A stretch of 64,000 bases of DNA. Origin: a virus. Where the stretch lies: positions 1 to 64,000 of the IMG/VR virus record IMGVR_UViG_3300002835_006866, one strand, 5' to 3'. Under the pieces are notes generated by a model. It was not told where the DNA came from and ran no database searches. It was given only the letters and a program-made list of their open reading frames with translations. The stretch's first letter is position 1; every line of letters begins with the position of its first letter. This document shows positions 963 to 31,304 of the stretch, piece by piece. A program made the translations under genes and the position numbers.

Positions 963-1817
963 ATGACTACACAAAGAGTCGGCACAAATCGAATTGCTAA
1001 TAATTCTATAACCACAGAAAAGTTATGGGCTGAAATACCGAACAGAATAAATGCAGCCTTTGACGCTGCAAATAATGCTACAGACACGTATGTAAGAAAT
1101 CATGCTAACGCCGCCTTTGATGCAGCGAATACGAAGTTACCTTTATCTGGAGGCACCGTAACAGGTGATTTAAGTGTTTCTGGCAACTTAACGGTAACAG
1201 GAAACACTTTCACTTTAAATGTAGGAACTCTTGTATCAAATGATAGTGTGATTCTATTAGCGGCTGGTAATTACACAACAGACCTTTTGGATATTGGTGT
1301 CATTGCACATTATAATGCTGGCACCAATGCTCATACTGGATTTGTTCGAGATCATATAACAAAAGAATGGTATTTGTTTAAAGAATACGTTCCAGAAATT
1401 GGAGCCAATAATAATATTAATACAAATGATCCCTCTTTCAGATTAGATACGCTAAATGCAAATGTAAAATCAAATACTATTTCCTCAAATACTGTTACAT
1501 TTAGAACTGAATACGATAATGGTAATTCTGGAACAGCAATAACAATTAATTTTGGTGTCAATCAAAAACAAAAGCTTACACTCAATGCAAACACTACTTT
1601 GACCTTTACTGCTCCTCCAGGTGTAGGTAACTTTTTACTAAAGATCGTTCAAGATGGAACAGGAGGAAGATTAATTACTTGGCCAAATACAATTAGATGG
1701 ACTTTAAATGCTAGGCCTATTTTAACGTCTAATGCAAACGCTATTGACATAGTATCATTCTACTATGACGGAACAAACTATTTTGGTGTAACTAGTTTTA
1801 ATTTTGCGGCACCATAA
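963..1817 (+). CDS. Tail-fibre protein
   Basis: 284 residues. It opens with VGTNRIANNSITTEKL, a motif typical of long-fibre or fibre-adaptor proteins. Two near-repeats follow: INAAFDAANNATDTYVRNHA and NAAFDAANTKL. Around residues 60-80 is PLSGGTVTGDLSVSGNLTV, the hallmark repeat unit of phage tail fibres ahead of a C-terminal tip domain. The C-terminal half is beta-rich and Asn/Thr-rich. It follows the previous gene after three bases and overlaps the next by one base (TAATG), so the fibre genes are translationally coupled. It probably forms a host-recognition fibre segment; the partner order cannot be derived from sequence. Confidence 0.75.
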   Translation: MTTQRVGTNRIANNSITTEKLWAEIPNRINAAFDAANNATDTYVRNHANAAFDAANTKLPLSGGTVTGDLSVSGNLTVTGNTFTLNVGTLVSNDSVILLAAGNYTTDLLDIGVIAHYNAGTNAHTGFVRDHITKEWYLFKEYVPEIGANNNINTNDPSFRLDTLNANVKSNTISSNTVTFRTEYDNGNSGTAITINFGVNQKQKLTLNANTTLTFTAPPGVGNFLLKIVQDGTGGRLITWPNTIRWTLNARPILTSNANAIDIVSFYYDGTNYFGVTSFNFAAP

Positions 1818-2323
1818 TGTCAATTGTTGCTACACCATATACGTACACCACCAACGATGTACAAACTGAGAGTTGGGTATATAACTTTGCTGTTGGATCA
1901 CTAACAAGAACAAATACTGCAACTGTAGATACTGATATAAGAACAACAATAAATGTATTTAATAATGGCTTAGCAAATATCAATATCTCATCAGTAACAA
2001 CAATAACAAGATCAGGAACAGATCCTGGTGCTTTCACCTACACAGCGGCCCCCGTTTTAAGATTTAATTCTGGAGGTGTAGATTTTACTTACTACTCCAC
2101 ATCTGGTTCTGTAAGTGTTGGAGGAAATGCTACTGGAACAGTTTCATTTCTTTCGACATTTAATATACTTTTGCCTGGTAATTTTTTGAATAAATTATGG
2201 ACATCAAATCACTCTGTCACAGTAACAGAAACCAATACAGCTAGAGTTGATTCTGGGTTTTTGGTTAGTCCCGGTTTTCTAATACCATCTCACACTTCTA
2301 CATTTTTTGGATCTAATTTTTAA
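1817..2323 (+). CDS. Putative virion structural protein, beta-rich
   Basis: 168 residues, almost entirely Thr/Ser/Asn/Val beta-strand sequence with alternating hydrophobic residues (for example SVSVGGNATGTVSFLS). No signal peptide, catalytic motif or recognised family. Both ends overlap neighbours by one base in TAATG junctions. The upstream side is fibre genes; the downstream side is the ParB-like gene that starts the sugar-chemistry cassette. Composition and coupling suggest a small fibre or fibre-tip subunit. A function other than structural cannot be excluded. Confidence 0.5.
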   Translation: MSIVATPYTYTTNDVQTESWVYNFAVGSLTRTNTATVDTDIRTTINVFNNGLANINISSVTTITRSGTDPGAFTYTAAPVLRFNSGGVDFTYYSTSGSVSVGGNATGTVSFLSTFNILLPGNFLNKLWTSNHSVTVTETNTARVDSGFLVSPGFLIPSHTSTFFGSNF

Positions 2324-3354
2324 TGAGTTATAGTGACAAGATTTTCATCTTTTATAATAAAAAAACTCTAGACATAATTTTCATACAAGAACCTTTAGGA
2401 ACTAATCTGACACCAGAAAAGTTTCTGGAAGAAAGATATGCTATTGAAAGTAAATGTAGAGGTTTTCCTTTTGAAGATTTTGGCGTAATTATTGGTGACA
2501 GAGAAAACTATCAAAAATTTTTAAAAGATATTAATTCTTATTTTTTAAGAATTGACAGTGAAAAGAATGAAGTTGAATATGTTTTAAAAAAAAGAGACAT
2601 TCTAAATCCAACTTACAATAGTCAAGATATAAAAAGACTATTTACTCCAGAACAAGTTGGAGAAATGTACCATGATGATTATGTAAATTTTAATTTAAAG
2701 AATTTCCTAAAAACAAATTACGCTGAGGCTGCATTTTTACCTTTAAATGAAATCAACATAAGCCTTCATATGTTGAATAAGAACTGGAAATATTTTTATA
2801 GTGACCAGTTTCTTTCCGATTCTCATGAGGATAAAAGAATTTTAGGCCAAAATATCTATCAAAATGGAACTTATTGGCCAATTATTTTATCTCCGTTATA
2901 CGGCCACGATTCAAATCATTCATATGTTTATGAAGGCACACATAGAATTATATCTCTGAAGTTAAATCAAAAAGAAGGGCTCATACCACCAGATTATAAA
3001 ATACTTTGTATAAAATATAAAGAGTGTTATGAGGTACTTTTAAACTCCAAAAGATTTATGCCCGTTTCTAACTCTTATAGAGCTAGAACTTTAATAGAAA
3101 TTCTTTATGGTAATAATGTAATCATTGATGAGGAAAAATATAATGCCTGTGTGCAAGATTGTTTGGCAAATAACGGTAAAGTAAAAAACGAATATACTCT
3201 AGAGTGGAATGTCAACACAACTGGAGAAAGTATCTTTGCCTTACAAACTTATCCACATTGGCTCAGAGATTTGATTTATCCAATTACAGATATAGTTAAA
3301 CCTAGTCCAATATTAAATGATGAAAAACTTTTTATGGAATGGTTGAATGAATAG
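2323..3354 (+). CDS. ParB-like domain protein of unknown function
   Basis: 343 residues, not confidently assigned. Around residues 183-225, NGTYWPIILSP followed by YVYEGTHRIISLKL resembles the ParB N-terminal (sulfiredoxin-like) fold, where a 'xGxxxPIxv...xxGxxRxxAxx' pattern binds CTP or nucleotide. The N-terminal ~180 residues and the C-terminal ~110 residues match nothing I recognise. It overlaps the fibre gene before it (1 base) and the radical SAM gene after it (8 bases). ParB-like domains in phage modification clusters can be nucleotide-binding kinases or nucleases; which applies here is unknown. Base composition is markedly AT-richer than in the virion genes, consistent with acquired DNA. 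Confidence 0.45.
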   Translation: MSYSDKIFIFYNKKTLDIIFIQEPLGTNLTPEKFLEERYAIESKCRGFPFEDFGVIIGDRENYQKFLKDINSYFLRIDSEKNEVEYVLKKRDILNPTYNSQDIKRLFTPEQVGEMYHDDYVNFNLKNFLKTNYAEAAFLPLNEINISLHMLNKNWKYFYSDQFLSDSHEDKRILGQNIYQNGTYWPIILSPLYGHDSNHSYVYEGTHRIISLKLNQKEGLIPPDYKILCIKYKECYEVLLNSKRFMPVSNSYRARTLIEILYGNNVIIDEEKYNACVQDCLANNGKVKNEYTLEWNVNTTGESIFALQTYPHWLRDLIYPITDIVKPSPILNDEKLFMEWLNE

Positions 3355-4366
3355 TTTAAGGCATATTAGACGAGTTGATATAGAACTACAATCTTTTTGT
3401 AATAGAACCTGTGATTGGTGTCCAAACAAAGAATATCTAAGAGACAAAAGTATTGTTTTAGAAGATGTCTATTACACAAAAATACTTTCCGAATTGAATC
3501 AATTTGAATTTGCTTTAGATAGAAAGTTTCCAATTATTACTACCAATTTGGACATGGTAGAGTTTAACGAAGATTTTTATAGAGATCAACCTACAATATC
3601 ATTTATGGGATTTCAAGAACCCATGGCTGATATTAAGTTATTGAAAAGAAGGGTTCTTGAAGCAAAAGAAACCTTGCCTCCTTACGTTGTTTTAAGTACA
3701 AACACAAATGGTGATTATTTCACAAAGAAAAATCTAGACGGTCTTTTTCTTACCGTTTTAAATGTAATGGATTATGATTGCAAAGGCAAAGACTACTGGA
3801 TTAAAACTTTAGAAGAAAATGACTGTATGGTTATTGACGATCCAGGCAAACAATACCAAGGAATATTAGCTATACACAAAAATATTAATTTAATTAAAGT
3901 TATGTATGATTGGCCAAAACAAATATTTTTGGAAAATAGAGGTGGCGTTTTAAGTAAAGAAGAACAATCACTAAAATTCATCAAGTGGAAAAATGATAGT
4001 AATAAAAGAATTGTTCCTTGTCCCGAGCCATCTTATTATATCAATATTACATTTGATGGTAGTGTTATGCCATGCTGCCATATCCGTTCTGATATACCCA
4101 TACATAAAGATTATATTTTAGGAAATGTAAAAGAAAATACACTGAAAGAAATATTGAATTCTCCAAAAGCGATAGAGTTCAGGCAGAGATTAACTGTTGA
4201 AAATGGAGATTATCCTGATCCATGTAAATATTGCCAAAAAATAAGGTCGAATGTTTGCACTGGTGCACCTAATGGCTTTAATTACATTGGCAAAAAATAC
4301 ATGGATAATAAAATAAATGAGAATGTGAGATTTATAAATGATTTCAGCCCAAGTCAACAGTCTTAA
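3347..4366 (+). CDS. Radical SAM enzyme with SPASM-like C-terminal cysteine cluster
   Basis: 339 residues. The radical SAM [4Fe-4S] triad is Cys18-x3-Cys22-x2-Cys25 in SFCNRTCDWCPN. C-terminal cysteines at 225, 243, 244, 293, 296 and 304 (CPEPSYY, MPCCHIRSD, DPCKYCQ) form a SPASM-like auxiliary iron-sulfur site, and ILGNVKENTLKEIL between them is typical of SPASM proteins. Such enzymes start 5'-deoxyadenosyl radical chemistry on peptides or, less often, sugars. The start overlaps the previous stop by 8 bases and the end overlaps the next radical SAM gene by 29 bases. The two enzymes share layout and probably act in sequence on related substrates. Substrate unknown; the neighbouring sugar-acid genes suggest glycan chemistry. 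Confidence 0.75.
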   Translation: MNSLRHIRRVDIELQSFCNRTCDWCPNKEYLRDKSIVLEDVYYTKILSELNQFEFALDRKFPIITTNLDMVEFNEDFYRDQPTISFMGFQEPMADIKLLKRRVLEAKETLPPYVVLSTNTNGDYFTKKNLDGLFLTVLNVMDYDCKGKDYWIKTLEENDCMVIDDPGKQYQGILAIHKNINLIKVMYDWPKQIFLENRGGVLSKEEQSLKFIKWKNDSNKRIVPCPEPSYYINITFDGSVMPCCHIRSDIPIHKDYILGNVKENTLKEILNSPKAIEFRQRLTVENGDYPDPCKYCQKIRSNVCTGAPNGFNYIGKKYMDNKINENVRFINDFSPSQQS

Positions 4367-5201
4367 ATTAGTAGAAATAGAAATCTATAACTACTGTAAT
4401 CGACGTTGCGATTTTTGTCCTAATTCTCTAGTAACATCAAGGCAAGATAAAAAAAATCCAACAATTATGGATTTTGAGTTGTTCAAAAAAACAATTGATG
4501 AATTGGTAGTTTTGAATTACAGTGGTGTAATTTCTTTTTCTAGATATAATGAACCACTTGCTTTCGATAAACTAACCAAAAAGTATGTTGATTATGTGAA
4601 ACAAAGAACAAAAAATAAAGTTGTTGCTAATACAAACGGCGACTTTTTGAATAAAAATAGTATTGAAATTTTTGATGAGTTGACAGTCATGGATTACTCT
4701 GGTAAGAGTCCTTATTGGTGGCAAAACAGAATGTCAAAACTGAATTGTAATTACATTCAAGAAAAAAGTAATGATGAGTTTTTATTTTTTAAAACACCGA
4801 ATAATAAAGATATACTACTTTTTCTAGACTTCAAAAAAAACGCCACAGTCGAAGATAGGGGTGGCATAATACAGACTTCGATAGTAAAGTTCAAGAATAA
4901 TAAAGACAAGAGACAAAGACCCTGTTTTGAGCCACAGAAGTTTTTAGGTATCGACTATAATGGACATGTTACAATTTGTTGCAATATGAATAGTGAGTTT
5001 CATTTGCAACATACAATAGGTAATACCTTCACCGAATCAATCTCTGATATATTAAGTTCTTCAAAAAGAAAAAAGTATATTGAAATTATGTCATCAGAAA
5101 ATTTTGAAAACTATCTTGATTCCTGTAAGTTTTGTCAAAAAGATCCAGGTAGATACACAAGAGATAATCCAGGAATATTTTATAATGGTGAACGCAAATG
5201 A
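4338..5201 (+). CDS. Second radical SAM/SPASM-like enzyme
   Basis: 287 residues. The triad is Cys20-x3-Cys24-x2-Cys27 in YNYCNRRCDFCPN. Further cysteines at 196, 214, 215, 263 and 266 (RPCFEPQ, TICCNMN, SCKFCQKD) match the auxiliary site of the preceding gene one for one except that gene's last Cys. The shared VEDRGG/LENRGG and NTNGD segments indicate the two are paralogues. The ATG lies inside the upstream gene (29-base overlap), and the 3' end overlaps the cytidylyltransferase gene by 4 bases (ATGA). As with its partner, the reaction is unknown; maturation of a sugar or peptide in a surface-modification pathway is an inference. Confidence 0.72.
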   Translation: MISAQVNSLKLVEIEIYNYCNRRCDFCPNSLVTSRQDKKNPTIMDFELFKKTIDELVVLNYSGVISFSRYNEPLAFDKLTKKYVDYVKQRTKNKVVANTNGDFLNKNSIEIFDELTVMDYSGKSPYWWQNRMSKLNCNYIQEKSNDEFLFFKTPNNKDILLFLDFKKNATVEDRGGIIQTSIVKFKNNKDKRQRPCFEPQKFLGIDYNGHVTICCNMNSEFHLQHTIGNTFTESISDILSSSKRKKYIEIMSSENFENYLDSCKFCQKDPGRYTRDNPGIFYNGERK

Positions 5202-5854
5202 AAAAAATAGGAGTTTTTATTCCGGGCCGTTTGAAGAGTGAAAGATTGCCAAACAAATTAGTTTTACCTTTAGGCGATTCAAATCTGTGGGATATGGCAT
5301 GTAAAAAGCTGAATGAATTGCCCGAAGAGTATAACAAATATGTTCTTTGTTATGATGAAGAATTGATTCACATAGCAAGTAAATATTCAAATCTTCAAAT
5401 TATTGTGAGAGATAAATCAACAACTGAAGTTGACGGACCACTCACATACATATTCAAAGAGCTGAAAGATTTATCAGATGAATATCTAATGTTTTTGAAT
5501 CCTTGTTTAAGTTTTTTAAACTTGGAAACAATTGTTAGTTCTCTGCAACAATTTGAAAGTTCCAATTTTGAATACGCCACTAGCGTAAAAGAATATAAAA
5601 ACTGGCTTTGGAATATGAATAAAGACAGTTTGACTCCTATTGATTATGAATCTTTATCAACAAAAAGCATTCCTGTTCACTATGAAGCTGCTCACTGTTT
5701 TCATATTTTTAATAGAAAAATTTTTTTTAAAACAGGCAAAATGTTAGATAAAAATTTACAACATATTTTAATATCAAATAACGAAGTCATTGATGTTGAT
5801 ACACATCAAGATTACCTATATGTAAAATGGAGGTATGAAGTTGTTTTCGAATAA
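5198..5854 (+). CDS. neuA-like: CMP-sugar (acylneuraminate-type) cytidylyltransferase
   Basis: 218 residues, the usual length for the NeuA/KdsB family, which activates nonulosonic acids with CTP to CMP-sugars. The N-terminal nucleotide-binding motif is GRLKSERLPNKLVLPLG (family pattern R-x-x-S-x-R-x-x-x-K). STTEVDGPLTYI and the aspartate/asparagine-rich NPCLSFL segment correspond to the later active-site strands. It overlaps the upstream radical SAM gene (4 bases) and the following oxygenase gene (20 bases). With the NeuB-like synthase at 6541 it forms a synthase/activator pair for a sialic-, legionaminic- or pseudaminic-like sugar. The exact sugar cannot be read from sequence. Confidence 0.75.
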   Translation: MKKIGVFIPGRLKSERLPNKLVLPLGDSNLWDMACKKLNELPEEYNKYVLCYDEELIHIASKYSNLQIIVRDKSTTEVDGPLTYIFKELKDLSDEYLMFLNPCLSFLNLETIVSSLQQFESSNFEYATSVKEYKNWLWNMNKDSLTPIDYESLSTKSIPVHYEAAHCFHIFNRKIFFKTGKMLDKNLQHILISNNEVIDVDTHQDYLYVKWRYEVVFE

Positions 5855-6539
5855 AGATACAGTTTTACCTTTTTATGAAGGTAATCGAATTAACTTTGTA
5901 GATAATAATTTTTATGATGTTTTGCCAGAATTTTTTAAAGGCGACTCACCTTCTCCTTTTCGAAATATGGGACTGTTATATAAAGATATGATAGAGCCTT
6001 ATGTCGATGAGATTGTTGACTGTTTAAATGATCCTGAAAAAACAGAGGTAAAACAAACTCATAATGGTAATCCTGTTAGAGCTTTATTAAAAGATAAAAC
6101 AGTAGTAAAATATATTGTTGAATATTTTGAAAATCTGTTTAATGATAAAGTTAATGAGATTCAAGTAAATCGAAACTTTGTGACAGATGTTCCTAGTTAT
6201 CTTGATGTGGAAGAATGTAACAAAGATAATTATTGGATATCACAATATTGGCATATAGACAACTATCTACACAAAAACTTTTCTGTTGGAATTTATCTAA
6301 ACGATGTTGAAGATGGTGGCGGTCAGTTTGAATATTTAAATAATCCAGAATACTATTTTTATAATTCAAAAATAGGTAATTGGAAAACAAGTAGATTTAA
6401 TTTATTACAACCATCAGAAGATGAGATAACAAAAATTTTAGGCCCCAGATGTACAACTTTCTTTTTTATACCAAACTTTATACATCGAGGCACTTTTTCG
6501 AGAACAAAACAACGTGACTTTATAAGACTTTTATTTTGA
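5835..6539 (+). CDS. 2-oxoglutarate/Fe(II)-dependent oxygenase
   Basis: 234 residues. The iron facial triad is visible as His140-x-Asp142 (QYWHIDNYLH) and His217 (FIPNFIHRGTF), followed by Arg227 for 2-oxoglutarate binding. GIYLNDVEDGGGQFEYL is the typical central strand of the prolyl-hydroxylase/phytanoyl-like double-stranded beta helix. Start choice: GGAGG at 5829-5833 is only one base from the ATG at 5835, whereas an in-frame TTG at 5841 has ideal spacing, so translation might begin two codons later. Placed between NeuA-like and NeuB-like genes, it probably hydroxylates the sugar or a carrier; this is inference. Confidence 0.72.
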   Translation: MKLFSNKDTVLPFYEGNRINFVDNNFYDVLPEFFKGDSPSPFRNMGLLYKDMIEPYVDEIVDCLNDPEKTEVKQTHNGNPVRALLKDKTVVKYIVEYFENLFNDKVNEIQVNRNFVTDVPSYLDVEECNKDNYWISQYWHIDNYLHKNFSVGIYLNDVEDGGGQFEYLNNPEYYFYNSKIGNWKTSRFNLLQPSEDEITKILGPRCTTFFFIPNFIHRGTFSRTKQRDFIRLLF

Positions 6540-6540
6540 T

Positions 6541-7371
6541 ATGATAAAATTTATTGCAGAAATTGGAATCAATCACAATGGCAGTTTAGATACTGCCTTA
6601 GAACTGATACAAAAATCTAAGGATGCCGGAGTTGACTGTGTAAAGTTTCAAAAAAGAACTCCTGATATTTGTGTGCCTGAAGAACAGAAATCTAAGTTAA
6701 GAGATACTCCTTGGGGTAAGATAACTTATCTAGAATACAAAAAGAAAATTGAGTTCGAGAGAAAAGAATATGACTTTATCGATTCGTATTGTAAAAGAAT
6801 AGGCATACAGTGGACTGCCAGTGTTTGGGACATACCTAGCTTTCATTTTATAAACTCGTATAATGTTCCGTACATTAAAATTCCAAGTGCTTGTATAACT
6901 GACGATTCACTTTTGGTTGAGATGAATGAGAATAGTTCAAAACCCATAATGATATCAACAGGAATGAGTACAATTGGCCAAGTAAAAAGGTGTGTATCGA
7001 TTCTTGATTCTAAAGTTGATTCCATTCTTCTTTGCAACAGTTCCTATCCTTCAGACTATTCAGAAATAGATTTAAATGCTTTATCATTTTTGAGAGAACA
7101 GTTTCCTCATTTGACGGTTGGATACAGTGGTCATGAAATCGATCTCTTACCTTCGATTTTAGCCTGCGGAGCTGGTGCCAAAATTATAGAAAGGCACGTT
7201 ACTTTAGATAAAAACATGTGGGGAACCGATCATAAATCCAGCTTGGACATCTTACAGTTAAAAGAATTAGTCAGTATTGTTCGACAGTCTGAAGTAATCA
7301 TGGGTAAAAACTATCTGTTTGTTTATGAGAAAGAAAAAGAGATGGCAAAGAAACTCAGAAAAGAAACTTAA
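6541..7371 (+). CDS. neuB-like: NeuB-like nonulosonic acid synthase lacking the SAF domain
   Basis: 276 residues. NeuB-family enzymes condense phosphoenolpyruvate with a hexosamine to give a nine-carbon sugar acid. Family signatures are present: EIGINHNGS at the N-terminus, CVKFQKRTPD, ISTGMST, LCNSSYPSDYSEID and VGYSGHEID, then IIERHVTLDK. These cover the whole TIM barrel. The usual C-terminal antifreeze-like (SAF) domain of ~60-70 residues, which in characterised NeuB completes the neighbour's active site, is absent: the protein ends at KKLRKET. It starts one base after the oxygenase stop and is the last gene of the cassette, just before the gene 13 late promoter. Barrel assignment is strong; substrate unknown. 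Confidence 0.8.
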   Translation: MIKFIAEIGINHNGSLDTALELIQKSKDAGVDCVKFQKRTPDICVPEEQKSKLRDTPWGKITYLEYKKKIEFERKEYDFIDSYCKRIGIQWTASVWDIPSFHFINSYNVPYIKIPSACITDDSLLVEMNENSSKPIMISTGMSTIGQVKRCVSILDSKVDSILLCNSSYPSDYSEIDLNALSFLREQFPHLTVGYSGHEIDLLPSILACGAGAKIIERHVTLDKNMWGTDHKSSLDILQLKELVSIVRQSEVIMGKNYLFVYEKEKEMAKKLRKET

Positions 7372-7376
7372 AATAA

Positions 7377-7384
7377 GATAAATA
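7377..7384 (+). promoter_or_regulatory. T4-type late promoter box (GATAAATA)
   Basis: One mismatch to TATAAATA. Standard spacing puts the RNA start at about 7390 and the gene 13 ATG at 7392, so the leader would be about two bases. No Shine-Dalgarno sequence lies upstream of that ATG, which fits near-leaderless translation. Confidence 0.6.
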
Positions 7385-7391
7385 CACCACT

Positions 7392-8345
7392 ATGGCAAAA
7401 CCTACTAACAGAAAACAGTTCAAAGAATACTGCCTACGCCGCATTGGCTGGCCAGTTATTGATATCAACGTCGATGAAGATCAAATAGAAGATCGAATCG
7501 ATGACGCTTTGTCCTTCTGGAATGACTATCATTTTGATGGCACCGAGAAGATGTTTATGAAGCATCGTATTACGGCTGAAGATATTAATCGTCGTTGGAT
7601 TTATTGTCCAGACGCTGTTTTGTTTGTCACCGGTATTTTTCCTTTTGATGAATCGAACTCGTCGATTAATATGTTCGACCTTCGTTATCAACTAAGACTT
7701 CATGACTTGTATGATTTTACATCCGTTTCATATGTTTCGTATGAAATCACGATGCAACATATTCGCACTTTGAATCTTCTATTCTCTGGTACTCCACAGT
7801 TTAGATTTAATCGCCATCAAAATAAAGTATTTTTAGATATAGATTGGGATAGAGATGTTGACGTTGGTGATTATGTCATCGTCGAATGTTATCGTAAATT
7901 AATTCCAGACACAATCACTTTAACTGGCACAATGAGTGCCAATACCACATCGAATACTGTAACTGGAGTAGGAACAATATTCGATCAAGAGATATTGGAG
8001 AATGATATCATAGCCATTGGTGGTGAAGAAGTAACAGTTAAAAAAATTGTTTCTCCAACTGAAATAGAAACAAGAGGTCCTGTTACCTCAAATAAGTCTG
8101 GAGTTACCGCTACAAAAGAAGGATATAGTGATGTTTGGAATGACCGATTCTTAAAGATGTATGCTACTGCCAAGATCAAACAACAATGGGGAAGTAATCT
8201 TAAAAAGTTTGGCAACATTCAAATGCCAGGTGGAGTTGTATTAAATGGTCAACAAATATACGATGAGGCTTCAGCTGAACTAGCAAAAATAGAAGAAGAG
8301 ATGCAATCTTACAATGTGTTGCCAAACGATATGTACATGGGATGA
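7392..8345 (+). CDS. gp13: Neck protein gp13 (head completion)
   Basis: 317 residues (T4 gp13 is 309). T4 gp13 and gp14 form the neck that closes the DNA-filled head and docks the tail. The N-terminus (RKQFKEYCLRRIGWPVIDIN, then DDALSFWNDYHFDG) is highly characteristic of gp13 in aquatic T4-like phages, and genes 14, 15, 16 and 17 follow in T4 order. A GTGTIFDQEILENDIIAIGG segment near residue 200 adds a small beta domain. The start follows the late-promoter box at 7377 by seven bases without a ribosome-binding site. Four bases separate it from gene 14. Confidence 0.88.
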   Translation: MAKPTNRKQFKEYCLRRIGWPVIDINVDEDQIEDRIDDALSFWNDYHFDGTEKMFMKHRITAEDINRRWIYCPDAVLFVTGIFPFDESNSSINMFDLRYQLRLHDLYDFTSVSYVSYEITMQHIRTLNLLFSGTPQFRFNRHQNKVFLDIDWDRDVDVGDYVIVECYRKLIPDTITLTGTMSANTTSNTVTGVGTIFDQEILENDIIAIGGEEVTVKKIVSPTEIETRGPVTSNKSGVTATKEGYSDVWNDRFLKMYATAKIKQQWGSNLKKFGNIQMPGGVVLNGQQIYDEASAELAKIEEEMQSYNVLPNDMYMG

Positions 8346-10658: not shown

Positions 10659-11093
10659 ATGGACACTTTAGTAGAAATGATGCGTAAGGTACTTGCCGAC
10701 ACCTTTGCAATGTACTTGAAGGCACATAACTATCACTGGAATGTGGAAGGCCCAAATTTTCCACAATACCACGAATTTTTTGGAAATCTTTATGAAGAGC
10801 TTCATGGTGCTATAGACCCTATCGCCGAACAGATTCGTGCTTTGGATGCCTATGCACCAGGTTCATTTTCTCGTTACATGGAATTATCCGATATTCAAGA
10901 TGAATTGAATGTTCCTATGGGAATTGAAATGGCAAATAGATTAATGCTTGATAATGAAATTGTTTTAAATAGTTTGAATATGGCATTTAAATTGGCCGAT
11001 CAATTCGATAAACAAGGTTTAGCGGACTTCTTAGCAGGTAGAATAGACGTTCATCACAAACATCGTTGGATGCTTCGTAGTATTACAAAATAA
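10659..11093 (+). CDS. dps-like: Dps-like ferritin
   Basis: 144 residues (cellular Dps is ~160). Dps proteins oxidise and store Fe(II) and protect DNA from peroxide. The signature AHNYHWNVEGPNFPQYHEFF carries His26 and His38 at the spacing of the E. coli Dps ferroxidase ligands, with Asp53 and Glu57 (AIDPIAEQI) completing the site. The position of the additional Asp ligand (E. coli Asp67) is Gly42 here. The protein begins almost at the ferritin helix A and lacks the Lys-rich DNA-binding tail of E. coli Dps. AAGGA lies 5' of the start, and the stop overlaps the gp17 start by one base. Sitting between terminase subunits, it is probably expressed late and could be packaged or protect DNA during packaging; that is inference. 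Confidence 0.85.
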   Translation: MDTLVEMMRKVLADTFAMYLKAHNYHWNVEGPNFPQYHEFFGNLYEELHGAIDPIAEQIRALDAYAPGSFSRYMELSDIQDELNVPMGIEMANRLMLDNEIVLNSLNMAFKLADQFDKQGLADFLAGRIDVHHKHRWMLRSITK

Positions 11094-24317: not shown

Positions 24318-24729
24318 ATTCGAAAACATTAAAATCGTTCGACTACAAACCGGTGAAGATATCATTGCAGATTGTAAACAAGATGAAGAAAACTCTTCAG
24401 TGTTATTAAACAATCCTATGCACATAGTATTTAAAAGAATACCATCAGGAAGAACAGTCATGTTTATGATGCCTTGGCTTCCAATAGAATTGATTAAAGA
24501 AAATTCAGCTACCATATATGATTCTGACATTCTAACTGTTTTTGATCCTAAAGAAGATTTGATAGAGTATTATAGTCAACTTATAACAGATGAAGTTATG
24601 TCTGAGATTGGCGAACAATCTTTGAAAGGTGCTTTGTTTAGTTCAATGGAAGAAGCTGAAGAAGATGACATAGATGAAGAAGAACTTATGAACTTAATGA
24701 GAGAGAAAAGGAATAATAGGGTGCATTGA
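24310..24729 (+). CDS. Small LSm-like conserved phage protein
   Basis: 139 residues from ATG 24310 (overlapping the uvsW stop in ATGCCTGA). An earlier in-frame ATG at 24265 would add 15 residues deep inside uvsW and is less likely. The N-terminal part, IKIVRLQTGEDIIADC, and the later SSVLLNNPMHIVF fit the short five-strand pattern of Sm/LSm-like proteins often found near T4 replication genes. The C-terminal third is highly acidic (EEAEEDDIDEEEL). The gene at 50777 has the same pattern and may be a distant paralogue. Function unknown; RNA binding is a guess. Confidence 0.5.
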   Translation: MPEFENIKIVRLQTGEDIIADCKQDEENSSVLLNNPMHIVFKRIPSGRTVMFMMPWLPIELIKENSATIYDSDILTVFDPKEDLIEYYSQLITDEVMSEIGEQSLKGALFSSMEEAEEDDIDEEELMNLMREKRNNRVH

Positions 24730-25382
24730 TGAATTATGATGATATAGTTGTAAAGAAACCTTGGGGTAAAGAATACCTTTGTTATAGAAATAATGAAGTT
24801 GCTATATGGTATCTTCATATTGAACAAGACAAAGAAACTTCGATGCATTGCCATCCAAATAAGAACACTGGATTTGTTGTATTAAAAGGTAAAGCAAAAC
24901 TTTCTTTTCTCAGAAATTCTGTTGATCTAGAAGGTTTAGATAAGATACACATTTTTAGATCAAGGTTTCATTCAACAAGAGCTGTAACAGATTCTTTTAT
25001 ATTTGAGATTGAAACGCCTGAAGATAAACACGATCTTGTTCGCTTAGACGATGCTTATGGTCGAGCAGGTAAAGAATACGAAGGACAAAATTACCATTTA
25101 CCAAAAGATGAATCTTGTTTTTGGATTGAAGAGGCTTCAGAAAATCCAAAATTAATGTTTATAAATGGTTGTTCGGTAAGACATTTAAAAACATCCAATA
25201 AAGAATTATTGCTAAATAAAGATGAGTCTGAATTGTTTGTCATAACAAGTGGTGGTGTAATTACCGAAAAAAATCAAAAGGTAGTTTGGCCAGGAGATGT
25301 CATAGACGGCAAAACATTAAATAGATTACTTAATTCTTTTGATGTAGAAAAGGACACAACCGTAATACACGTTACTAAGTGA
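24729..25382 (+). CDS. Cupin protein (sugar isomerase-like)
   Basis: 217 residues from ATG 24729, which overlaps the previous stop (TGATG). VKKPWGKEYLCYRN, HIEQDKETSMHCHPNKNTGFVVLKG and IHIFRSRFHSTRAV form the conserved cupin barrel of mannose-6-phosphate isomerase type II/WbuC-like proteins: PWG start, then a metal-binding H-x-H-x(n)-H arrangement. A second, weaker cupin half follows (ELFVITSGGVITEKNQ, VWPGDVI), so this may be a bicupin. It opens the metabolic island and probably acts on a phosphorylated or nucleotide-linked sugar. Reaction not determinable. Confidence 0.68.
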   Translation: MNYDDIVVKKPWGKEYLCYRNNEVAIWYLHIEQDKETSMHCHPNKNTGFVVLKGKAKLSFLRNSVDLEGLDKIHIFRSRFHSTRAVTDSFIFEIETPEDKHDLVRLDDAYGRAGKEYEGQNYHLPKDESCFWIEEASENPKLMFINGCSVRHLKTSNKELLLNKDESELFVITSGGVITEKNQKVVWPGDVIDGKTLNRLLNSFDVEKDTTVIHVTK

Positions 25383-25389
25383 GTTGAAA

Positions 25390-26904
25390 ATGATTGATAT
25401 ATTATTTGTACATCCTAACGCTTCTGAAAAAATTTATCAAGGCCTTGCTAAGAATAACTCCGCTATAGAACCTCCAATCTGGGCAGCCATGTTGGCAAAT
25501 AGTGTGAGAGCAAAAGGGTTTAGACCAGAGATTCTTGATGCTGAAGTTGAAGGCCTAGATTACCTATCTGCTGCCAGAAGAATCACTGAATATAAAGCCA
25601 AAGTTGTTTGTTTTGTTGTATATGGCCAACAACCATCTGCATCTTCCCAAAACATGGAAGGTGCCACTGCAACAGCAAGAGAATTAAAAAATCTACAACC
25701 AAATACATTCGTTGTGTTTGTTGGTGGTCATGTTGCTGCATTGCCTATTGAAACGATGAAACAAGAAACATTCATCGATGCTGTTTGTCAAAACGAAGGT
25801 GTGTATACACTTCATTCTCTTCTGTCGTTACCAAATCTAGAAGAACAATCACTAAAGAAAGTAAAAGGTTTAGTCTTTAGAGATAATGATGGTAATATCA
25901 TTATGAATGAATCTTCACCTATTGTTCCTAAAGATATGCTTGAGCATGACCTGCCTGGTATGGCATGGGACTTATTAAGACCTCTTAGTGAATATAGAAC
26001 AGCAGGTTGGCACTCATGGTCAAATAATACTGAGAAACAACCTTTTGCTGCACTTTATACAAGTCTTGGTTGTCCATACAAATGTTCGTTCTGTATGATT
26101 AATATCATCAACCGAACTAAACAGGGTACAGATGTTGCAAGTGCCGATAGTAATGTTTTCCGTTGGTGGTCACCAGAGTTCATCATCAAACAGTTCGATG
26201 AGATAGCCCGACAAGGTGTTCGAAACATTAAAATTGCTGACGAACTTTTTGTTTTGAATCCTAGGCATTTTGAAGCCATTTGCGATTTGATTATAGAACG
26301 AGGTTATGATTTTAATATCTGGGCATATTCAAGAGTTGATACCTGTAAGCCTAAGTATCTTGATAAACTTGCCAAAGCTGGTGTAAAATGGTTAGGATTA
26401 GGTATTGAAAATCCAAATAATGAATTGAGGAAAGAAATTCATAAAGAAGGATTTCAAGAAGTCAAGGTTTTAGATTTAATCAATATGATTCGTGATGCAG
26501 GAATTAATGTAGGTGGTAATTATATCTTTGGACTTCCTTATGATACACATGAATCAATGCAAGCAACATTAGACTTTGCATTGGAAAATCCAACAGAAAT
26601 GGCTAACTTCTATTCTGCTATGGCATACCCAGGTAGTCCTCTTCATAATCAAGCTCGTATTCTTGGTTTAGATTTGCCTACAACCTATTCTGGTTATAGT
26701 CAACACTCTTATGATACCTTGAATCTTTCTAACGCTCACCTAAGTGCTGCTGAGATTTTGGCATTTAGAGACAAAGCCTGGGACACATATCACTCGAGCG
26801 ACAAATACCTTGGTTTGATGAAAACAAAATTTGGCCAAAAAGCCGTAGATGAACTTGATAGTACCAAAAAAGTTAAGTTGAAAAGAAAATTACTTGGAGA
26901 TTAA
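25390..26904 (+). CDS. B12-binding-type radical SAM enzyme
   Basis: 504 residues from ATG 25390; an upstream in-frame TTG at 25384 is less likely. The N-terminal ~150 residues (ILFVHPNASEKIYQG, FVVFVGGHVAALP) form the Rossmann-like domain typical of cobalamin-binding radical SAM proteins. The SAM triad is Cys228-x3-Cys232-x2-Cys235 in LGCPYKCSFCMIN. IADELFVLN, NIWAYSRVD, KWLGLGIENPN and GGNYIFGLPYDT are the standard following strands. These enzymes methylate or rearrange unactivated carbons, often on sugars, lipids or natural products. A downstream gene starts two bases after the stop. Whether the host supplies cobalamin is unknown. Confidence 0.82.
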   Translation: MIDILFVHPNASEKIYQGLAKNNSAIEPPIWAAMLANSVRAKGFRPEILDAEVEGLDYLSAARRITEYKAKVVCFVVYGQQPSASSQNMEGATATARELKNLQPNTFVVFVGGHVAALPIETMKQETFIDAVCQNEGVYTLHSLLSLPNLEEQSLKKVKGLVFRDNDGNIIMNESSPIVPKDMLEHDLPGMAWDLLRPLSEYRTAGWHSWSNNTEKQPFAALYTSLGCPYKCSFCMINIINRTKQGTDVASADSNVFRWWSPEFIIKQFDEIARQGVRNIKIADELFVLNPRHFEAICDLIIERGYDFNIWAYSRVDTCKPKYLDKLAKAGVKWLGLGIENPNNELRKEIHKEGFQEVKVLDLINMIRDAGINVGGNYIFGLPYDTHESMQATLDFALENPTEMANFYSAMAYPGSPLHNQARILGLDLPTTYSGYSQHSYDTLNLSNAHLSAAEILAFRDKAWDTYHSSDKYLGLMKTKFGQKAVDELDSTKKVKLKRKLLGD

Positions 26905-26905
26905 A

Positions 26906-27451
26906 ATGAAATCATTGATTATTACTTATGATAAGTTTCAAGACCATGAGGTTGTTTATCCTTTTTATCGTTTGAAAGAAGAAGGTGATGTTACCTTGAT
27001 GGCACACCAAATTGGAAAAATTTATGGTATTTTAGGTACTAATATGTTATCTAATGCTGTGACTGATGATCTTACTGATCCAATTTTTTCTAAAGAAATG
27101 ATAAGCAGATTTGACCTTCTAGTTATTCCTGGTGGTGTAAAAGCAATGGAAAAAATTAGACAAGAGAAACATGTTATAGATTTTATTTCAGCATGGCATA
27201 AAACAGGTAAAGTAATTGCAAGCACATGTTCTGGCGCCCAGCTATTAATTTCTGCGAAGATCGTAAAGGGAAAAAACATTAGCGCCTATTATGCTATGCA
27301 AGATGATGTTGAAAACGCTGGCGCTATATACTCTAGAGATCCAGTGGTTGTTGATGGCAATATCGTATCATCACCACACTACGATCATATGGGAATTTGG
27401 TTGAAAACTGCTATCGATATGGTGAAAGATGGACAAACAAACACTGCTTGA
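26906..27451 (+). CDS. DJ-1/PfpI family protein (glutamine-amidotransferase-like fold)
   Basis: 181 residues from ATG 26906, served by TTGGAG at 26894-26898; an in-frame TTG at 26894 is the alternative. The nucleophile elbow is IASTCSGAQLL with Cys108, preceded by LLVIPGG (the acidic/glycine strand) near residue 71. The family includes glyoxalases, deglycases, hydratases and chaperones; the typical histidine after Cys is replaced by Ser. It overlaps the E1-alpha-like gene by 23 bases, implying coupled expression with the thiamine enzyme. Detoxification of a reactive aldehyde intermediate is possible but unproven. Confidence 0.75.
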   Translation: MKSLIITYDKFQDHEVVYPFYRLKEEGDVTLMAHQIGKIYGILGTNMLSNAVTDDLTDPIFSKEMISRFDLLVIPGGVKAMEKIRQEKHVIDFISAWHKTGKVIASTCSGAQLLISAKIVKGKNISAYYAMQDDVENAGAIYSRDPVVVDGNIVSSPHYDHMGIWLKTAIDMVKDGQTNTA

Positions 27452-28250
27452 AATATACAAGAAAGCGGCTTTATGCCGTGCTTTCGAAGAAGAAGTCTAC
27501 AGACAGGTTGAGAACAAAAATGTTCGAATACCTGTTTATCTTTCTGCCGGTCAAGAATATATTTCCGCAACTTTGGCCGTATTACTTAAAGACATAGAAA
27601 AACAAATTTTTATTCAGCATCGAGGACATTCTACTTACCTTTCTTTTGGTGGTGATGTCGAACAATTAGTTCTCGAACTATTGGGAGACAAAAGAGGATG
27701 TGCTAACGGTATGGGTGGTTCTGCATCTATACAATCAAAAGAAAAAAACATCTATGGTCACGATGGTTTAATGGGTTCACACGGACCAATTGCTACAGGT
27801 ATGTGTTATGCCAATAAAAAGTTTACGTTATGTTTTACTGGTGACGCTGCAGCTGAAGAAGATTATTTTGTAACATCAATTGGTTGGGCATCAACTAAAA
27901 ACTTACCTATTTGGTATATTGTAGAAGATAACAATTATTCGATTCTAACCGAGAAAAAGGTTCGTCGTAATTGGGAAATGCATGATGTTGCCAAAGCCAT
28001 GAATATGGATGGTTTTAATGTTGAAGATGACCCAGAATCTATGTGGAATGTTATACAACAATGTAGTACAGAAAAACCTTTATTATTAAACATAAACACA
28101 ATTAGATTATTCTGGCATGCTGGTGCGGGTATCGATGACCCCAATGTGTTTGATCGACATAAAGTTTTTACTGAGATGTTTGGCAATGATATTAATCTTG
28201 AAGCTCAAGAACATGTGAAGGAGATTTGGTCAAAATGTCTGCAACGCTAA
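27429..28250 (+). CDS. Thiamine-diphosphate E1-alpha-like subunit
   Basis: 273 residues, shorter than cellular pyruvate/branched-chain E1-alpha (~330-370). The family pattern is clear: YLSAGQEYISATLA, GHSTYLSFGG, GCANGMGGSASI, and GHDGLMGSHGPIATGM. The thiamine-diphosphate/Mg motif starts at GDAAAEEDYF and ends ~25 residues later in VEDNNYSI. The first Gly-Asp is followed by Ala rather than Gly. No phosphorylation-loop insertion is visible. It overlaps the beta-like gene by 16 bases, giving an alpha/beta heterotetramer in equal amounts. In this sugar island it may transfer a two-carbon or acyl unit; the exact substrate is unknown. Confidence 0.82.
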   Translation: MDKQTLLEIYKKAALCRAFEEEVYRQVENKNVRIPVYLSAGQEYISATLAVLLKDIEKQIFIQHRGHSTYLSFGGDVEQLVLELLGDKRGCANGMGGSASIQSKEKNIYGHDGLMGSHGPIATGMCYANKKFTLCFTGDAAAEEDYFVTSIGWASTKNLPIWYIVEDNNYSILTEKKVRRNWEMHDVAKAMNMDGFNVEDDPESMWNVIQQCSTEKPLLLNINTIRLFWHAGAGIDDPNVFDRHKVFTEMFGNDINLEAQEHVKEIWSKCLQR

Positions 28251-29137
28251 GAGATGTAATTAAAGAAACTGTTAGACACCATTTAAAGGAAGAAAATGGT
28301 TTGGCTATGGGCCAGTGCCTAACAGCTGTTGGTTGGGTTGGTGGTACACTACCAGAACTATATGAAGAAGATGGTATGGTAGAAGTTTCTATGGCTGATG
28401 TAGCGGGTGGAGGTTTTGCTGTTGGCGCAGCATTGGCAGGAAGAAGGCCAATGTATATCATTCGTTATCAAGGATTCAATTGGTTTAATGCACCAATAAT
28501 TATCAACTATGCTGCCAAGTCTAAAGAGATTTGGGGTGTGCCATGTCCAATGTTTGTTCGTTCAATTGCTATGGAAGGTGGCATTGGTCCAGTTGCCGGT
28601 TCTTCTCACCACGCTTTATATTATAGAATGCCCGGTGTTCGAATCGTTTCACCAATGACACCAGGTGAATATAAAAAAGTTTATAAAGATTTTATGGAAA
28701 GTGATGAAGTCTTTTATGTTTCAGAACACCGAGGCGCTTACAACAATACAGAAGAACTAGAAGATATTAATGATTCTTTTCCAGATATTGTTTTATTTCC
28801 AACTTCTATTACTCGATTTGCTGCACAAGAAGCTGCAAAACAATTATTGAAAGAAGGTTACAGAGTTGCAGTTCACCATATAGTGCAAATAAAACCTTTT
28901 GAACCTAGTGATGAGTCTGTTGTTTCTTTACGCAGAGCTCAAAAAGGTATAGTTCTTGATGATGATTACGTAAATGGTGTTGCTAAATCTCTTGCCTTTG
29001 ATCTGATACAAAAAACAAATGCTACAGTTTATGTTATGGGTTTAGATGATCGCACCGCAGGTTTTTATCCAGAAGTTGATAATCTGCCACCTTCGAAAGA
29101 AAAGATTGTTGAATTTGCTAAAAGGATAATTCGATGA
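28235..29137 (+). CDS. Thiamine-diphosphate E1-beta-like subunit
   Basis: 300 residues from ATG 28235, with AAGGAGA at 28218-28224 upstream; an in-frame TTG at 28226 lies too close to that site. The pyrimidine-binding domain shows MVEVSMADVAGGGFAVGAALAG with the family glutamate in GMVEVSM, and MFVRSIAMEGGIGPVAGSSH. The transketolase C-terminal domain includes VAVHHIVQIKPFEPSD and GIVLDDDYVNGVAKSLA. Length is near the usual ~325. It pairs with the alpha-like gene before it and overlaps the GHMP kinase start by 4 bases. Lipoyl E2 and E3 partners are not encoded here, which argues against a complete dehydrogenase complex. Confidence 0.82.
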   Translation: MSATLRDVIKETVRHHLKEENGLAMGQCLTAVGWVGGTLPELYEEDGMVEVSMADVAGGGFAVGAALAGRRPMYIIRYQGFNWFNAPIIINYAAKSKEIWGVPCPMFVRSIAMEGGIGPVAGSSHHALYYRMPGVRIVSPMTPGEYKKVYKDFMESDEVFYVSEHRGAYNNTEELEDINDSFPDIVLFPTSITRFAAQEAAKQLLKEGYRVAVHHIVQIKPFEPSDESVVSLRRAQKGIVLDDDYVNGVAKSLAFDLIQKTNATVYVMGLDDRTAGFYPEVDNLPPSKEKIVEFAKRIIR

Positions 29138-30132
29138 ATATGTCTTTTTCTAAGACGCCTTATAGACTTTCTTTATTTGGAGGAGGCACGGATTACCCCG
29201 CTTGGTTTGAAAACAATCCTTGCAAAGTAATTTCAGCTTCAATGGCAAACTATAGTTATGTTCATGTCAAAGAATTGCCACCATTTTTTGAGCATAAGAT
29301 TTCAGTATCATATTCGAAAGTTGAACGAGTAAATTCCGTTGAAGAAATTGAACACCCTTCTGTACGAGCATGCCTTCAATATATGGACATAAAAGAAGGT
29401 GTGGTTATATCTTATGATGGAGATTTACCAGCAAGATCGGGGATAGGTTCAAGTTCATCTTTTACTGTGGGTCTTTTAAATGCTTTGTATAACTTTAAAG
29501 GTAAGTATGTTTCTCTAGAAGAGTTATCGAGACAGGCGATTTATATTGAGCAAGAAATGATCGGCGAAAATGTTGGTATTCAAGATCAAATTATGGCGGC
29601 TCATGGTGGTATAAGATTGATTGAAATGGGTCCAGGAAGAAATTGGAATTCTTATCCTTTATTTCTATCTCCTAACTATATGAAAGAATTAGAATCACAT
29701 ATCATGTTAGGGTTTTCAGGATTAAGTAGATATGCTGAAGTGCAATCTAAAAAACAGGTTGAAAACATCAAACAAAAAAATACCGATTTTTATTTGAAGT
29801 CTATGTCAGAACTAACCGAACATGCTCTTGAAGCTTTAATGGCAGGTAATGGAATGAACAAGATTGGTAATTTGTTAGATGCTGGTTGGAGATTAAAAAG
29901 AAACTTATCAGATAGTGTTACTGACAAGTGGATAGATAAGATATACAACAAAGCAATTAGCCTTGGCTCTCTTGGTGGAAAACTAATGGGTGCTGGCGGC
30001 GGTGGTTTTTTCTTATTTTTGGTTCCGCCAAATAGGCAAAAAGAATTTAAAGAACAGCTAGACGAAATAAAAGTTTGGGTTCCATTTAAATTCGATAAAG
30101 ATGGAAGTCACATAATTCATTTTTCAGATTGA
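29134..30132 (+). CDS. hddA-like: GHMP-family sugar kinase, heptose-7-phosphate kinase-like
   Basis: 332 residues (HddA-type kinases are ~340). The N-terminal motif SLFGGGTDYPAWF is diagnostic of D-glycero-D-manno-heptose 7-phosphate kinase and related GHMP sugar kinases. The ATP-binding loop is DLPARSGIGSSSSFTVG; GGKLMGAGGGGFFLF is the C-terminal motif 3. Two in-frame ATGs (29134 and 29140) could serve as the start. It overlaps the E1-beta-like gene by 4 bases (ATGA). It would phosphorylate the anomeric carbon of a sugar phosphate ahead of nucleotide activation. Confidence 0.83.
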   Translation: MNMSFSKTPYRLSLFGGGTDYPAWFENNPCKVISASMANYSYVHVKELPPFFEHKISVSYSKVERVNSVEEIEHPSVRACLQYMDIKEGVVISYDGDLPARSGIGSSSSFTVGLLNALYNFKGKYVSLEELSRQAIYIEQEMIGENVGIQDQIMAAHGGIRLIEMGPGRNWNSYPLFLSPNYMKELESHIMLGFSGLSRYAEVQSKKQVENIKQKNTDFYLKSMSELTEHALEALMAGNGMNKIGNLLDAGWRLKRNLSDSVTDKWIDKIYNKAISLGSLGGKLMGAGGGGFFLFLVPPNRQKEFKEQLDEIKVWVPFKFDKDGSHIIHFSD

Positions 30133-30139
30133 GGTCGTT

Positions 30140-31303
30140 ATGAAATATCCTTTGATGCGTAACAATATTCTTAGAGAAGATTTAGATGCCATGATTGAGC
30201 ATCTAAAACAAGATGATCCTATTTTAACAAATGGGCCAAATTGCAGGAAGTTTGAAGAAGAATGGTCTGAGTGGTTGGGTGTGAAGTATTCCGTATTTGT
30301 AAATTCTGGTGCATCAGCAAATTTACTTTCAATGACTGCACTTAAAATTATGCACCCATATGGAGGCGAGGTCATTGTTCCGCCTTTAACATGGATATCC
30401 GATGTTGCTTCAGTGATTCAATGTGGTTTCAAACCTGTGTTTGTAGATATTGATCTGAATACTTTAGGTATGAACACAGATAAAATTATCGCTGCAATTA
30501 CTCCACAAACAAAAGCAGTTTTTCTTTCCCACATTCAAGGGTATAATGCAATCACAGATAAACTTATATACGAATTAGAAAAAAGAAATATACCTTTAAT
30601 TGAAGATGTATGTGAATCTCATGGTGCTACGTACAAAGGTAAAAAATGTGGAAGTATTGGTTGGATGTCCAACTTTTCTTTCTACTATGCTCACCATATG
30701 ACTACGATTGAAGGTGGCATGATTAGCACCAATGACAAGAATCTTTACCATACACTTAGAATGTTGAGGTCACATGGTATGGTTCGTGAGTGTGATAGCC
30801 AAGAACTAAAACAAAACTATATTGAAAACAATTTTGATTTAAATCCAGATTTTATATTTTCTTATGCAGCATACAACATGAGAAACAATGAACTTGGTGG
30901 AATACTTGGTCGAAAGCAGTTGCCAAGGTTGGATGAAAATGTTAAAGTTAGAAACTACAATAACCATAGGTTGCTAAGTAAACTCAACGATAACTATTTC
31001 ACAGAGTTTAATTTAGAAGGTCAAAGTAATTATGCCTTCAACATCGTTTTGAAAAATAAAGATGATGATTTTATGAATAGATTGTCAACAAAACTACGTG
31101 AAAGTGGAGTTGAATTTAGAAGAGGTTCTGCTGGTGGTGGAAATCAATTAAGACAACCTTATTTAAAAGATGTTGTGAATGTCGATCTAAAAGATTTTCC
31201 AAATACCGAACATGTTCACTTTTATGGTCTGTACATTGGTAATTTTCCAACAATGGAAAAACAAGAAGTGGATGAAATCGTAAACATTTTAAACGGAGTA
31301 TAG
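30140..31303 (+). CDS. ColD/RfbH-like sugar 3-dehydrase of the DegT/DnrJ fold
   Basis: 387 residues. The fold-type I pattern is clear: SVFVNSGASANLLSM binds cofactor phosphate, IEDVCESHGA carries the cofactor-ring Asp, and SFYYAHHMTTIEGG is the active-site loop. The position that is Lys in DegT-family aminotransferases (six residues before the EGG glutamate) is His185. The same His replacement defines the PMP-dependent dehydrases ColD and CDP-hexulose-3-dehydrase E1/RfbH, which remove a 3-hydroxyl to make 3,6-dideoxy sugars. So I call it a dehydrase, not an aminotransferase. No ferredoxin-type partner is adjacent, which suits the ColD type. It lies between the GHMP kinase and an SDR gene. Confidence 0.75.
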   Translation: MKYPLMRNNILREDLDAMIEHLKQDDPILTNGPNCRKFEEEWSEWLGVKYSVFVNSGASANLLSMTALKIMHPYGGEVIVPPLTWISDVASVIQCGFKPVFVDIDLNTLGMNTDKIIAAITPQTKAVFLSHIQGYNAITDKLIYELEKRNIPLIEDVCESHGATYKGKKCGSIGWMSNFSFYYAHHMTTIEGGMISTNDKNLYHTLRMLRSHGMVRECDSQELKQNYIENNFDLNPDFIFSYAAYNMRNNELGGILGRKQLPRLDENVKVRNYNNHRLLSKLNDNYFTEFNLEGQSNYAFNIVLKNKDDDFMNRLSTKLRESGVEFRRGSAGGGNQLRQPYLKDVVNVDLKDFPNTEHVHFYGLYIGNFPTMEKQEVDEIVNILNGV

Positions 31304-31304
31304 T

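Follow-up and report, generated by a model that had tools for sequence, protein, structure and literature searches.

Sugar genes have already been described in the island between the tail-fibre and neck genes of pelagimyophages and cyanomyophages (PMC7029224), the freshwater genomes of that study being reported there to lack both lipopolysaccharide (LPS)-related genes and radical S-adenosylmethionine (SAM) proteins. A TARA virus encoding NeuA and KdsA is also on record (PMC5332604). The stretch of DNA analysed here, hereafter the window, consists of the first 64,000 nucleotides of a 95,851-base virus record (IMG/VR IMGVR_UViG_3300002835_006866), read as T4-like from its terminase, sheath, portal and capsid open reading frames (ORFs). 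Positions 2323-7371 are occupied by a cassette of six genes that is likely to make a cytidine monophosphate (CMP)-activated ulosonic (sialic-like) acid tailored by radical SAM enzymes. As judged from gene order and phylogeny, this set is a recurrent module with a phage lineage of its own and occurs in phages that differ widely in type. The likeliest use of the sugar is on the virion itself, as a decoration of its tail or fibre protein, a reading that is held here with about even confidence. The six ORFs lie end to end and are translationally coupled, both among themselves and with the small gene of structural type that precedes them:

1817..2323, plus strand: serine/threonine-rich (S/T-rich, 30%) structural-type protein of 168 amino acids, candidate acceptor or partner (from its neighbourhood and its co-travel with the module)
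2323..3354, plus strand: g1, ParB-CTPase/sulfiredoxin-like fold protein of 343 amino acids with an invariant G-x-H-R (predicted fold)
3347..4366, plus strand: g2, radical SAM/SPASM enzyme, long version (SPASM, E 1e-15)
4338..5201, plus strand: g3, BtrN-like radical SAM/SPASM enzyme (SPASM, E 8e-10; Radical_SAM, E 3e-8; BtrN match)
5198..5854, plus strand: g4, CMP-sugar-type cytidylyltransferase (CTP_transf_3, E 1e-8)
5835..6539, plus strand: g5, Fe(II)/2-oxoglutarate (2OG) oxygenase, another allele being present in the phage locus L004 (predicted fold)
6541..7371, plus strand: g6, NeuB-family phosphoenolpyruvate (PEP)-dependent synthase, short form without the SAF domain (NeuB, E 5e-65)

The start codon of g1 shares a base with the stop codon of the preceding gene (TAATG at 2321-2325). 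Inside the cassette, the junctions are overlaps of 8 (g1/g2), 29 (g2/g3), 4 (g3/g4) and 20 bases (g4/g5), and g5 and g6 are separated by 1 base. The 5' side is made of tail-fibre-type genes, the ORF at 963-1817 matching a PHROG tail fibre (E 3e-13). On the 3' side, 20 bases after g6, comes a head-tail adaptor/neck gene (7392-8345, PHROG 211, E 4e-40). These coordinates and flanks confirm the six coupled genes that an initial annotation, made from the sequence alone, had placed between the fibre block and gene 13. Its six family guesses all held in family and fold searches, that of ParB at the level of the predicted fold only.

The association of a NeuB synthase, a HAD phosphatase and a cytidylyltransferase follows the logic of CMP-ulosonate synthesis, as in the Neu5Ac-9-P or Kdo-8-P routes. 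The g6 product scores 220 bits against PF03102 (cut-off 22.1). It was compared with Neisseria meningitidis NeuB on the basis of a published list of active-site residues (PMC6795526). Where the initial annotation had allowed for a protein devoid of all catalytic residues, eight core residues are identical in the alignment (E25, Q55, K129, Y186, S213, H215 and E234 of that list, together with H236), four others being substituted (N74 to T, T110 to S, F112 to W and N184 to S). The g4 product matches PF02348 (35 bits, cut-off 22.6), and R11, S14, R16, P18 and K20 of its loop PGRLKSERLPNK (R-x-x-S-x-R-L-P-x-K) are invariant across ten phages. Assignment of g6 as a true NeuB or PseI is not supported, given both equivalog scores (TIGR03569, 217.7 versus 399.65 bits; TIGR03586, 159.1 versus 340.25 bits) and the missing SAF domain and Arg314. 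A true NeuA or PseF is likewise not supported for g4, whose nearest family, PseF, gives 40 bits, far under the equivalog cut-off of 205.7. The earlier proposal of NeuB- and NeuA-like sugar-acid genes stands at the level of the pathway and not of these precise enzymes. Membership of the g6/g4 pair in an ulosonic-acid pathway is well supported by sequence, because the families hold, the metal- and PEP-site core of NeuB is kept and bacterial relatives adjoin NeuA-type genes.

In scans with the short NeuB, the viral stretches numbered 577 and those from bacteria or archaea at least 546; 80 of each were retained. The module, consisting of a ParB-like gene, radical SAM genes, the cytidylyltransferase, a 2OG, HAD or HAD-cupin gene and NeuB, was found whole or partial in roughly a dozen other uncultured phages, whose loci are numbered with the prefix L. 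The order ParB-like gene, one or two radical SAM genes, cytidylyltransferase, variable gene and NeuB is kept in L004, L107, L108, L117, L119, L112 and L137, and partial copies exist as well. The variable slot before NeuB holds a 2OG oxygenase in L004, L005, L107 and L108, a HAD protein in L117, a HAD-cupin fusion in L119 and a cupin in L112; outside the cassette, a profile search of the window's record found no HAD of the module type. L005 and L003 end at contig edges, L002, a contig with 100% identity, represents the same virus rather than an independent case, L113-L115 repeat L112, and L110-L111 repeat L109. In a tree of 132 NeuB sequences, whose bacterial side is the best 80 of at least 546 genome matches, all twelve module NeuBs and that of L006 form one clade (support 0.97) with no bacterial member. 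No tblastn relative of g1, g2 or g3 was detected in the 80 bacterial and archaeal NeuB loci, two of which gave weak radical SAM profile matches, and an initial genome scan with g4 found no relatives. Among 50,697 GenBank phages, g1, g3 and g4 had no tblastn match and the cassette no relative at the DNA level; NeuB alone was matched at the protein level, in three records.

A cytidylyltransferase or small HAD phosphatase lies within 5 kb of the short NeuB at 58 of 74 non-redundant viral loci versus 10 of 68 genome loci, a comparison that under-counts the NeuA partners present in bacteria, since the profiles were built from phage proteins, and that is no proof that a CMP transferase is missing for the short NeuBs of bacteria. 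Indeed, bacterial short NeuBs adjoin NeuA-type genes, some of them NeuA-HAD fusions, which supports a CMP-ulosonate pathway. Eight phages carry a module-type NeuB; the module-type cytidylyltransferase is present in all eight and a BtrN-like radical SAM enzyme in seven, even where the genes are unlinked. In a 203-kb phage, a radical SAM-cytidylyltransferase-HAD unit lies beside tail genes (L023) and NeuB about 98 kb away (L130). In the L006 phage, a ParB-like gene and NeuB adjoin fibre-like genes, and a radical SAM-cytidylyltransferase-HAD-cupin unit is found at 90-92 kb. This co-occurrence without linkage argues for a single pathway. Variants of the arrangement were also observed. In L109 (39-6505), a cytidylyltransferase-HAD-NeuB unit is preceded by three ParB-like genes with other radical SAM-type genes in between, and the 203-kb phage has a second, shorter NeuB-like gene of 207 amino acids near ParB/radical SAM repeats (L182:4316-4939).

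The sole PDB sequence match of g3 is BtrN (E 6e-14), with R174 aligned to chain residue 152. Arg152 of BtrN is an active-site residue. In an alignment of 14 intact phage homologues, C20, C24, C27, R174, C196, C214, C263 and C266 are invariant, and g2 retains the CxxxCxxC motif, an Arg of the BtrN-Arg152 type and auxiliary-cluster cysteines. The cassette enzymes thus combine the three features by which a BtrN-like protein was recognized (CxxxCxxC, auxiliary cysteines and an Arg152 equivalent). CxxxCxxC, the aligned Arg152 and four aligned auxiliary-cluster cysteines are shared with BtrN (PDB 4M7S/4M7T), from which the phage enzymes differ by an extra conserved adjacent cysteine (C215), a SPASM-type Pfam match and the presence of two side-by-side paralogues. 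BtrN oxidises 2-deoxy-scyllo-inosamine by two electrons (PMC9012708), and a comparable sugar-alcohol dehydrogenase activity is putatively assigned to g2 and g3, with the caution imposed by a subfamily in which sequence predicts function poorly (PMC6231123). In L119, the first of two radical SAM genes (6954-7775) has lost CxxxCxxC and kept its SPASM domain, and looks like a dead partner of the adjoining intact copy, which gives a hint that g2 and g3 form heterodimers. A third radical SAM gene, without auxiliary-cluster cysteines, is located in L117 (14356-15045) after the tail genes and behind a second ParB-like gene. As for g5, family searches gave no sequence match. Its AlphaFold2 (AF2) model (pLDDT 83) has 178 PDB fold matches at E<=1e-3 (best 2.5e-6), those listed being 2OG oxygenases; it combines a double-stranded beta-helix fold with the HxD...H motif of Fe(II)/2OG oxygenases (H140, D142 and H217), D142 being replaced by A in L108.

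The link to tail genes recurs as well. Tail, virion or endolysin genes adjoin the module in L108, L117, L119, L023, L112 and L137, the exception being the radical SAM-cytidylyltransferase part in the L006 phage, which has no tail genes alongside. In the window, L004, L107, L108 and L117, the ParB-like gene starts at most 6 bases from the end of a structural gene, and a second site of the 203-kb phage combines tail-type genes with two ParB-like and three radical SAM genes. The product of 1817-2323 has no convincing Pfam or PHROG match. Among the screened loci, its family occurs in module carriers only: just upstream of g1 in L002, L004, L107 and L108, and in L117 as the N-terminal part of a 422-amino-acid protein directly downstream of NeuB (E 3e-8). 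The usual position of the module directly behind tail genes suggests that the sugar may be used on the phage's own tail proteins, and it is plausible, from gene context, that the host surface is not its only destination. Among the targets first proposed (host surface, virion or DNA), the balance thereby moves towards the virion, and the sialic-like pathway itself is retained.

The g1 product matches no Pfam family, those of ParB included. Its AF2 model (pLDDT 85) finds many ParB/Srx/Dnd-like proteins in the viral fold library BFVD (probability about 1.0), and homologues are present in L004, L107, L108, L112, L117, L119, L137, L006, L109 and L182. SerK and SbnI, two serine kinases, have ParB folds, other proteins with this fold bind CTP, ATP or GTP, and in phages ATP-binding ParB folds are fused to DUF1983, a frequent terminal part of receptor-binding proteins (PMC12704722). 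With SerK, SbnI, Srx and these DUF1983 fusions, g1 may share a ParB-like core, as its predicted fold suggests, along with the G-x-H-R motif; unlike them, it lacks a Pfam ParB match and its kind sits with radical SAM or NeuB genes behind structural genes. Since such folds include kinases and nucleotide binders, a kinase or a CTP/CMP-sugar binder is conceivable for g1, as a guess by analogy.

In the pathway proposed, g6 would condense PEP with a sugar aldehyde, either free or phosphorylated, and g2 and g3 would oxidise a hydroxyl group, thereby tailoring the precursor or the product, on which g5 might perform a hydroxylation or an epimerisation. The HAD phosphatase encoded by other phages' modules would remove the phosphate, and g4 would activate the product with CTP. 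As a small-molecule kinase, g1 could belong to the path itself, or it could connect the path to the tail as a CTP/CMP-sugar-handling factor. The acceptor would be a tail or fibre protein of the phage itself, the S/T-rich product of 1817-2323 being the first candidate. Genes that might encode the transferase include an unassigned one adjoining NeuB in L107 and L108 and an MptE-like gene in L007 (38.5 bits, cut-off 34.6). A narrower version, considered unlikely, is a tail glycosylation system specific to phages, in which the radical-SAM-made CMP-ulosonic acid would be placed on Ser/Thr residues of the neighbouring structural protein, the predicted ParB-fold g1 acting as the CMP-sugar-using transferase or as its specificity factor; if true, g1 would be an O-glycosyltransferase or targeting factor of a new class.

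Several points weigh against decoration of the tail. The cassette itself contains no glycosyltransferase, and no amino-sugar genes lie beside NeuB. The candidate acceptor is designated by its neighbourhood alone, and the search for homologues of it in the L112, L119, L137 and L109 loci yielded none. The best six PDB folds found with g1 are all KorB/Noc/ParB-N and weak (E 0.09-0.25, probability up to 0.87). As in the aligned short relatives from phages, g6 is reduced to the barrel, without F288 and the SAF domain bearing R314, and Arg314/SAF is essential in the Neisseria enzyme (PMC6795526). A short NeuB-type chain is nevertheless not unheard of, since 6ncs, a chain of 290 residues named sialic acid synthetase, is among the PDB matches of g6. 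Finally, for similar phages the accepted interpretation is one of use at the host surface (PMC7029224).

This last scheme, in which host or phage glycosyltransferases place the same type of sugar on the host LPS or capsule and thereby block superinfection or change the receptor, is the most serious competitor, although a less probable one. The cassette indeed occupies the position of the pelagimyophage host recognition cluster, in which LPS genes abound (PMC7029224), and further sugar genes are present in this genome, namely a second cassette (24726-32647) and glycan-type genes at 43482, at 48802 and around 64.7-66.8 kb; against it stand the absence of a transferase, flippase or polymerase from the module and the recurrence of the module, in very different phages, with tail genes and with a single family of structural genes. 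The second cassette comprises a cupin-like ORF, a B12-binding radical SAM gene, a PfpI-like ORF, E1 dehydrogenase alpha/beta, a GHMP kinase, a DegT aminotransferase and an NAD epimerase, and the sugar-type genes at about 64.0-68.2 kb of the record (L025:1005-5159) encode an APH-like kinase, a nucleotidyltransferase-HAD fusion, an NAD epimerase and a methyltransferase. Peptide modification, with the SPASM, ParB-like and 2OG proteins altering side chains in the neighbouring tail protein and with NeuB and the cytidylyltransferase forming a separate unit, is improbable. Peptides are frequent targets of SPASM enzymes (PMC9012708, PMC6231123), and in L182 and L117 tail genes are adjoined by ParB-like/radical SAM units that include no cytidylyltransferase. 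The best and sole PDB match is however a small-molecule enzyme, BtrN, even if sequence is a poor predictor of function here (PMC6231123). Moreover, the radical SAM and cytidylyltransferase genes remain together even when NeuB is elsewhere. Synthesis of the sugar for hypermodified DNA is very improbable: phages do make odd sugars for their DNA, and a sulfur-modification (Dnd-like) ParB-fold protein is among the g1 fold matches, but the module has no DNA-modifying partner and lies within the tail gene run, and CMP-ulosonates are not known to serve as DNA donors.

The composition of the cassette does not demonstrate acquisition, because the G+C content at third codon positions of its genes (0.17-0.30) overlaps that of the flanking structural genes (0.19-0.31); overall G+C is 30.2% in the cassette versus 35.6% in the window. 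On this basis, the reading of G+C as a mark of recent acquisition was rejected; the initial annotation had found acquisition to fit two sampled lines at 15-25% G+C, against about 47% for a line in gene 23. Such low lines exist (23% of the cassette lines are at or below 25%) and are not typical of the cassette, and values of 46-47% are typical of gene 23 only. Relative to L004, synonymous divergence (dS) is 0.20-0.24 for g3-g4, g3 being 95% identical, about 1.0-1.3 for g1 and g2, and saturated for g6 and gene 13, the ratio of nonsynonymous to synonymous divergence (dN/dS) being 0.03-0.33 wherever computable. The g5 counterpart is a different allele (39% identity). The uneven dS and this differing allele argue that the cassette is reshuffled between phages by recombination. 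A search for the T4 late promoter TATAAATA or sigma-70 sites gave nothing informative for the cassette; the only three TATAAATA (T4-late-promoter-like) sites of the window (12740, 19309 and 21825), fewer than chance, lie 5-31 bases 5' of structural ORFs at 12778, 19340 and 21838. Elsewhere, ORFs were read as Dps/ferritin-like (10659-11093, between neck and terminase genes), rubrerythrin-like (50058-50498), and PstS-like and porin-like (L026:5110-7551).

Phage sugar genes are usually viewed as scattered, host-like auxiliary genes, and the present set is a recurrent multi-enzyme one of its own lineage. If its sugar is carried by tail proteins, the module would provide a new means of tuning host recognition or masking the virion; it would likewise be a natural supply of sialic-like sugars tailored by radical SAM enzymes. 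For phage ParB-fold proteins, the set suggests a testable role beyond DNA segregation. In the open-licence literature, no description was found of this ParB-radical SAM-cytidylyltransferase-NeuB set, nor of SPASM enzymes joined with nonulosonic acids in phages. The bacterial nonulosonic acid pathways (NeuB/NeuA and PseI/PseF) share with it the logic of a PEP-dependent synthase followed by a CMP transferase; the phage set differs from them by the missing SAF domain, the scores below equivalog level and the radical SAM and ParB-like partners. A parallel for the proposed use is flagellin O-glycosylation, in which a bacterial nonulosonic acid is placed on a self-assembling surface protein (PMC7591256), with the difference that the phage cassette has no FlmG/Maf-type transferase. 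With the host recognition cluster of pelagimyophages and cyanomyophages, the cassette has in common its position from tail fibres to neck and the sugar genes inside, a feature known before. What is new here is the recurrence of the module: the described cluster contains glycosyltransferases and deoxysugar genes (PMC7029224), whereas the ParB-radical SAM-cytidylyltransferase-NeuB set is common also to phages that are not T4-like.

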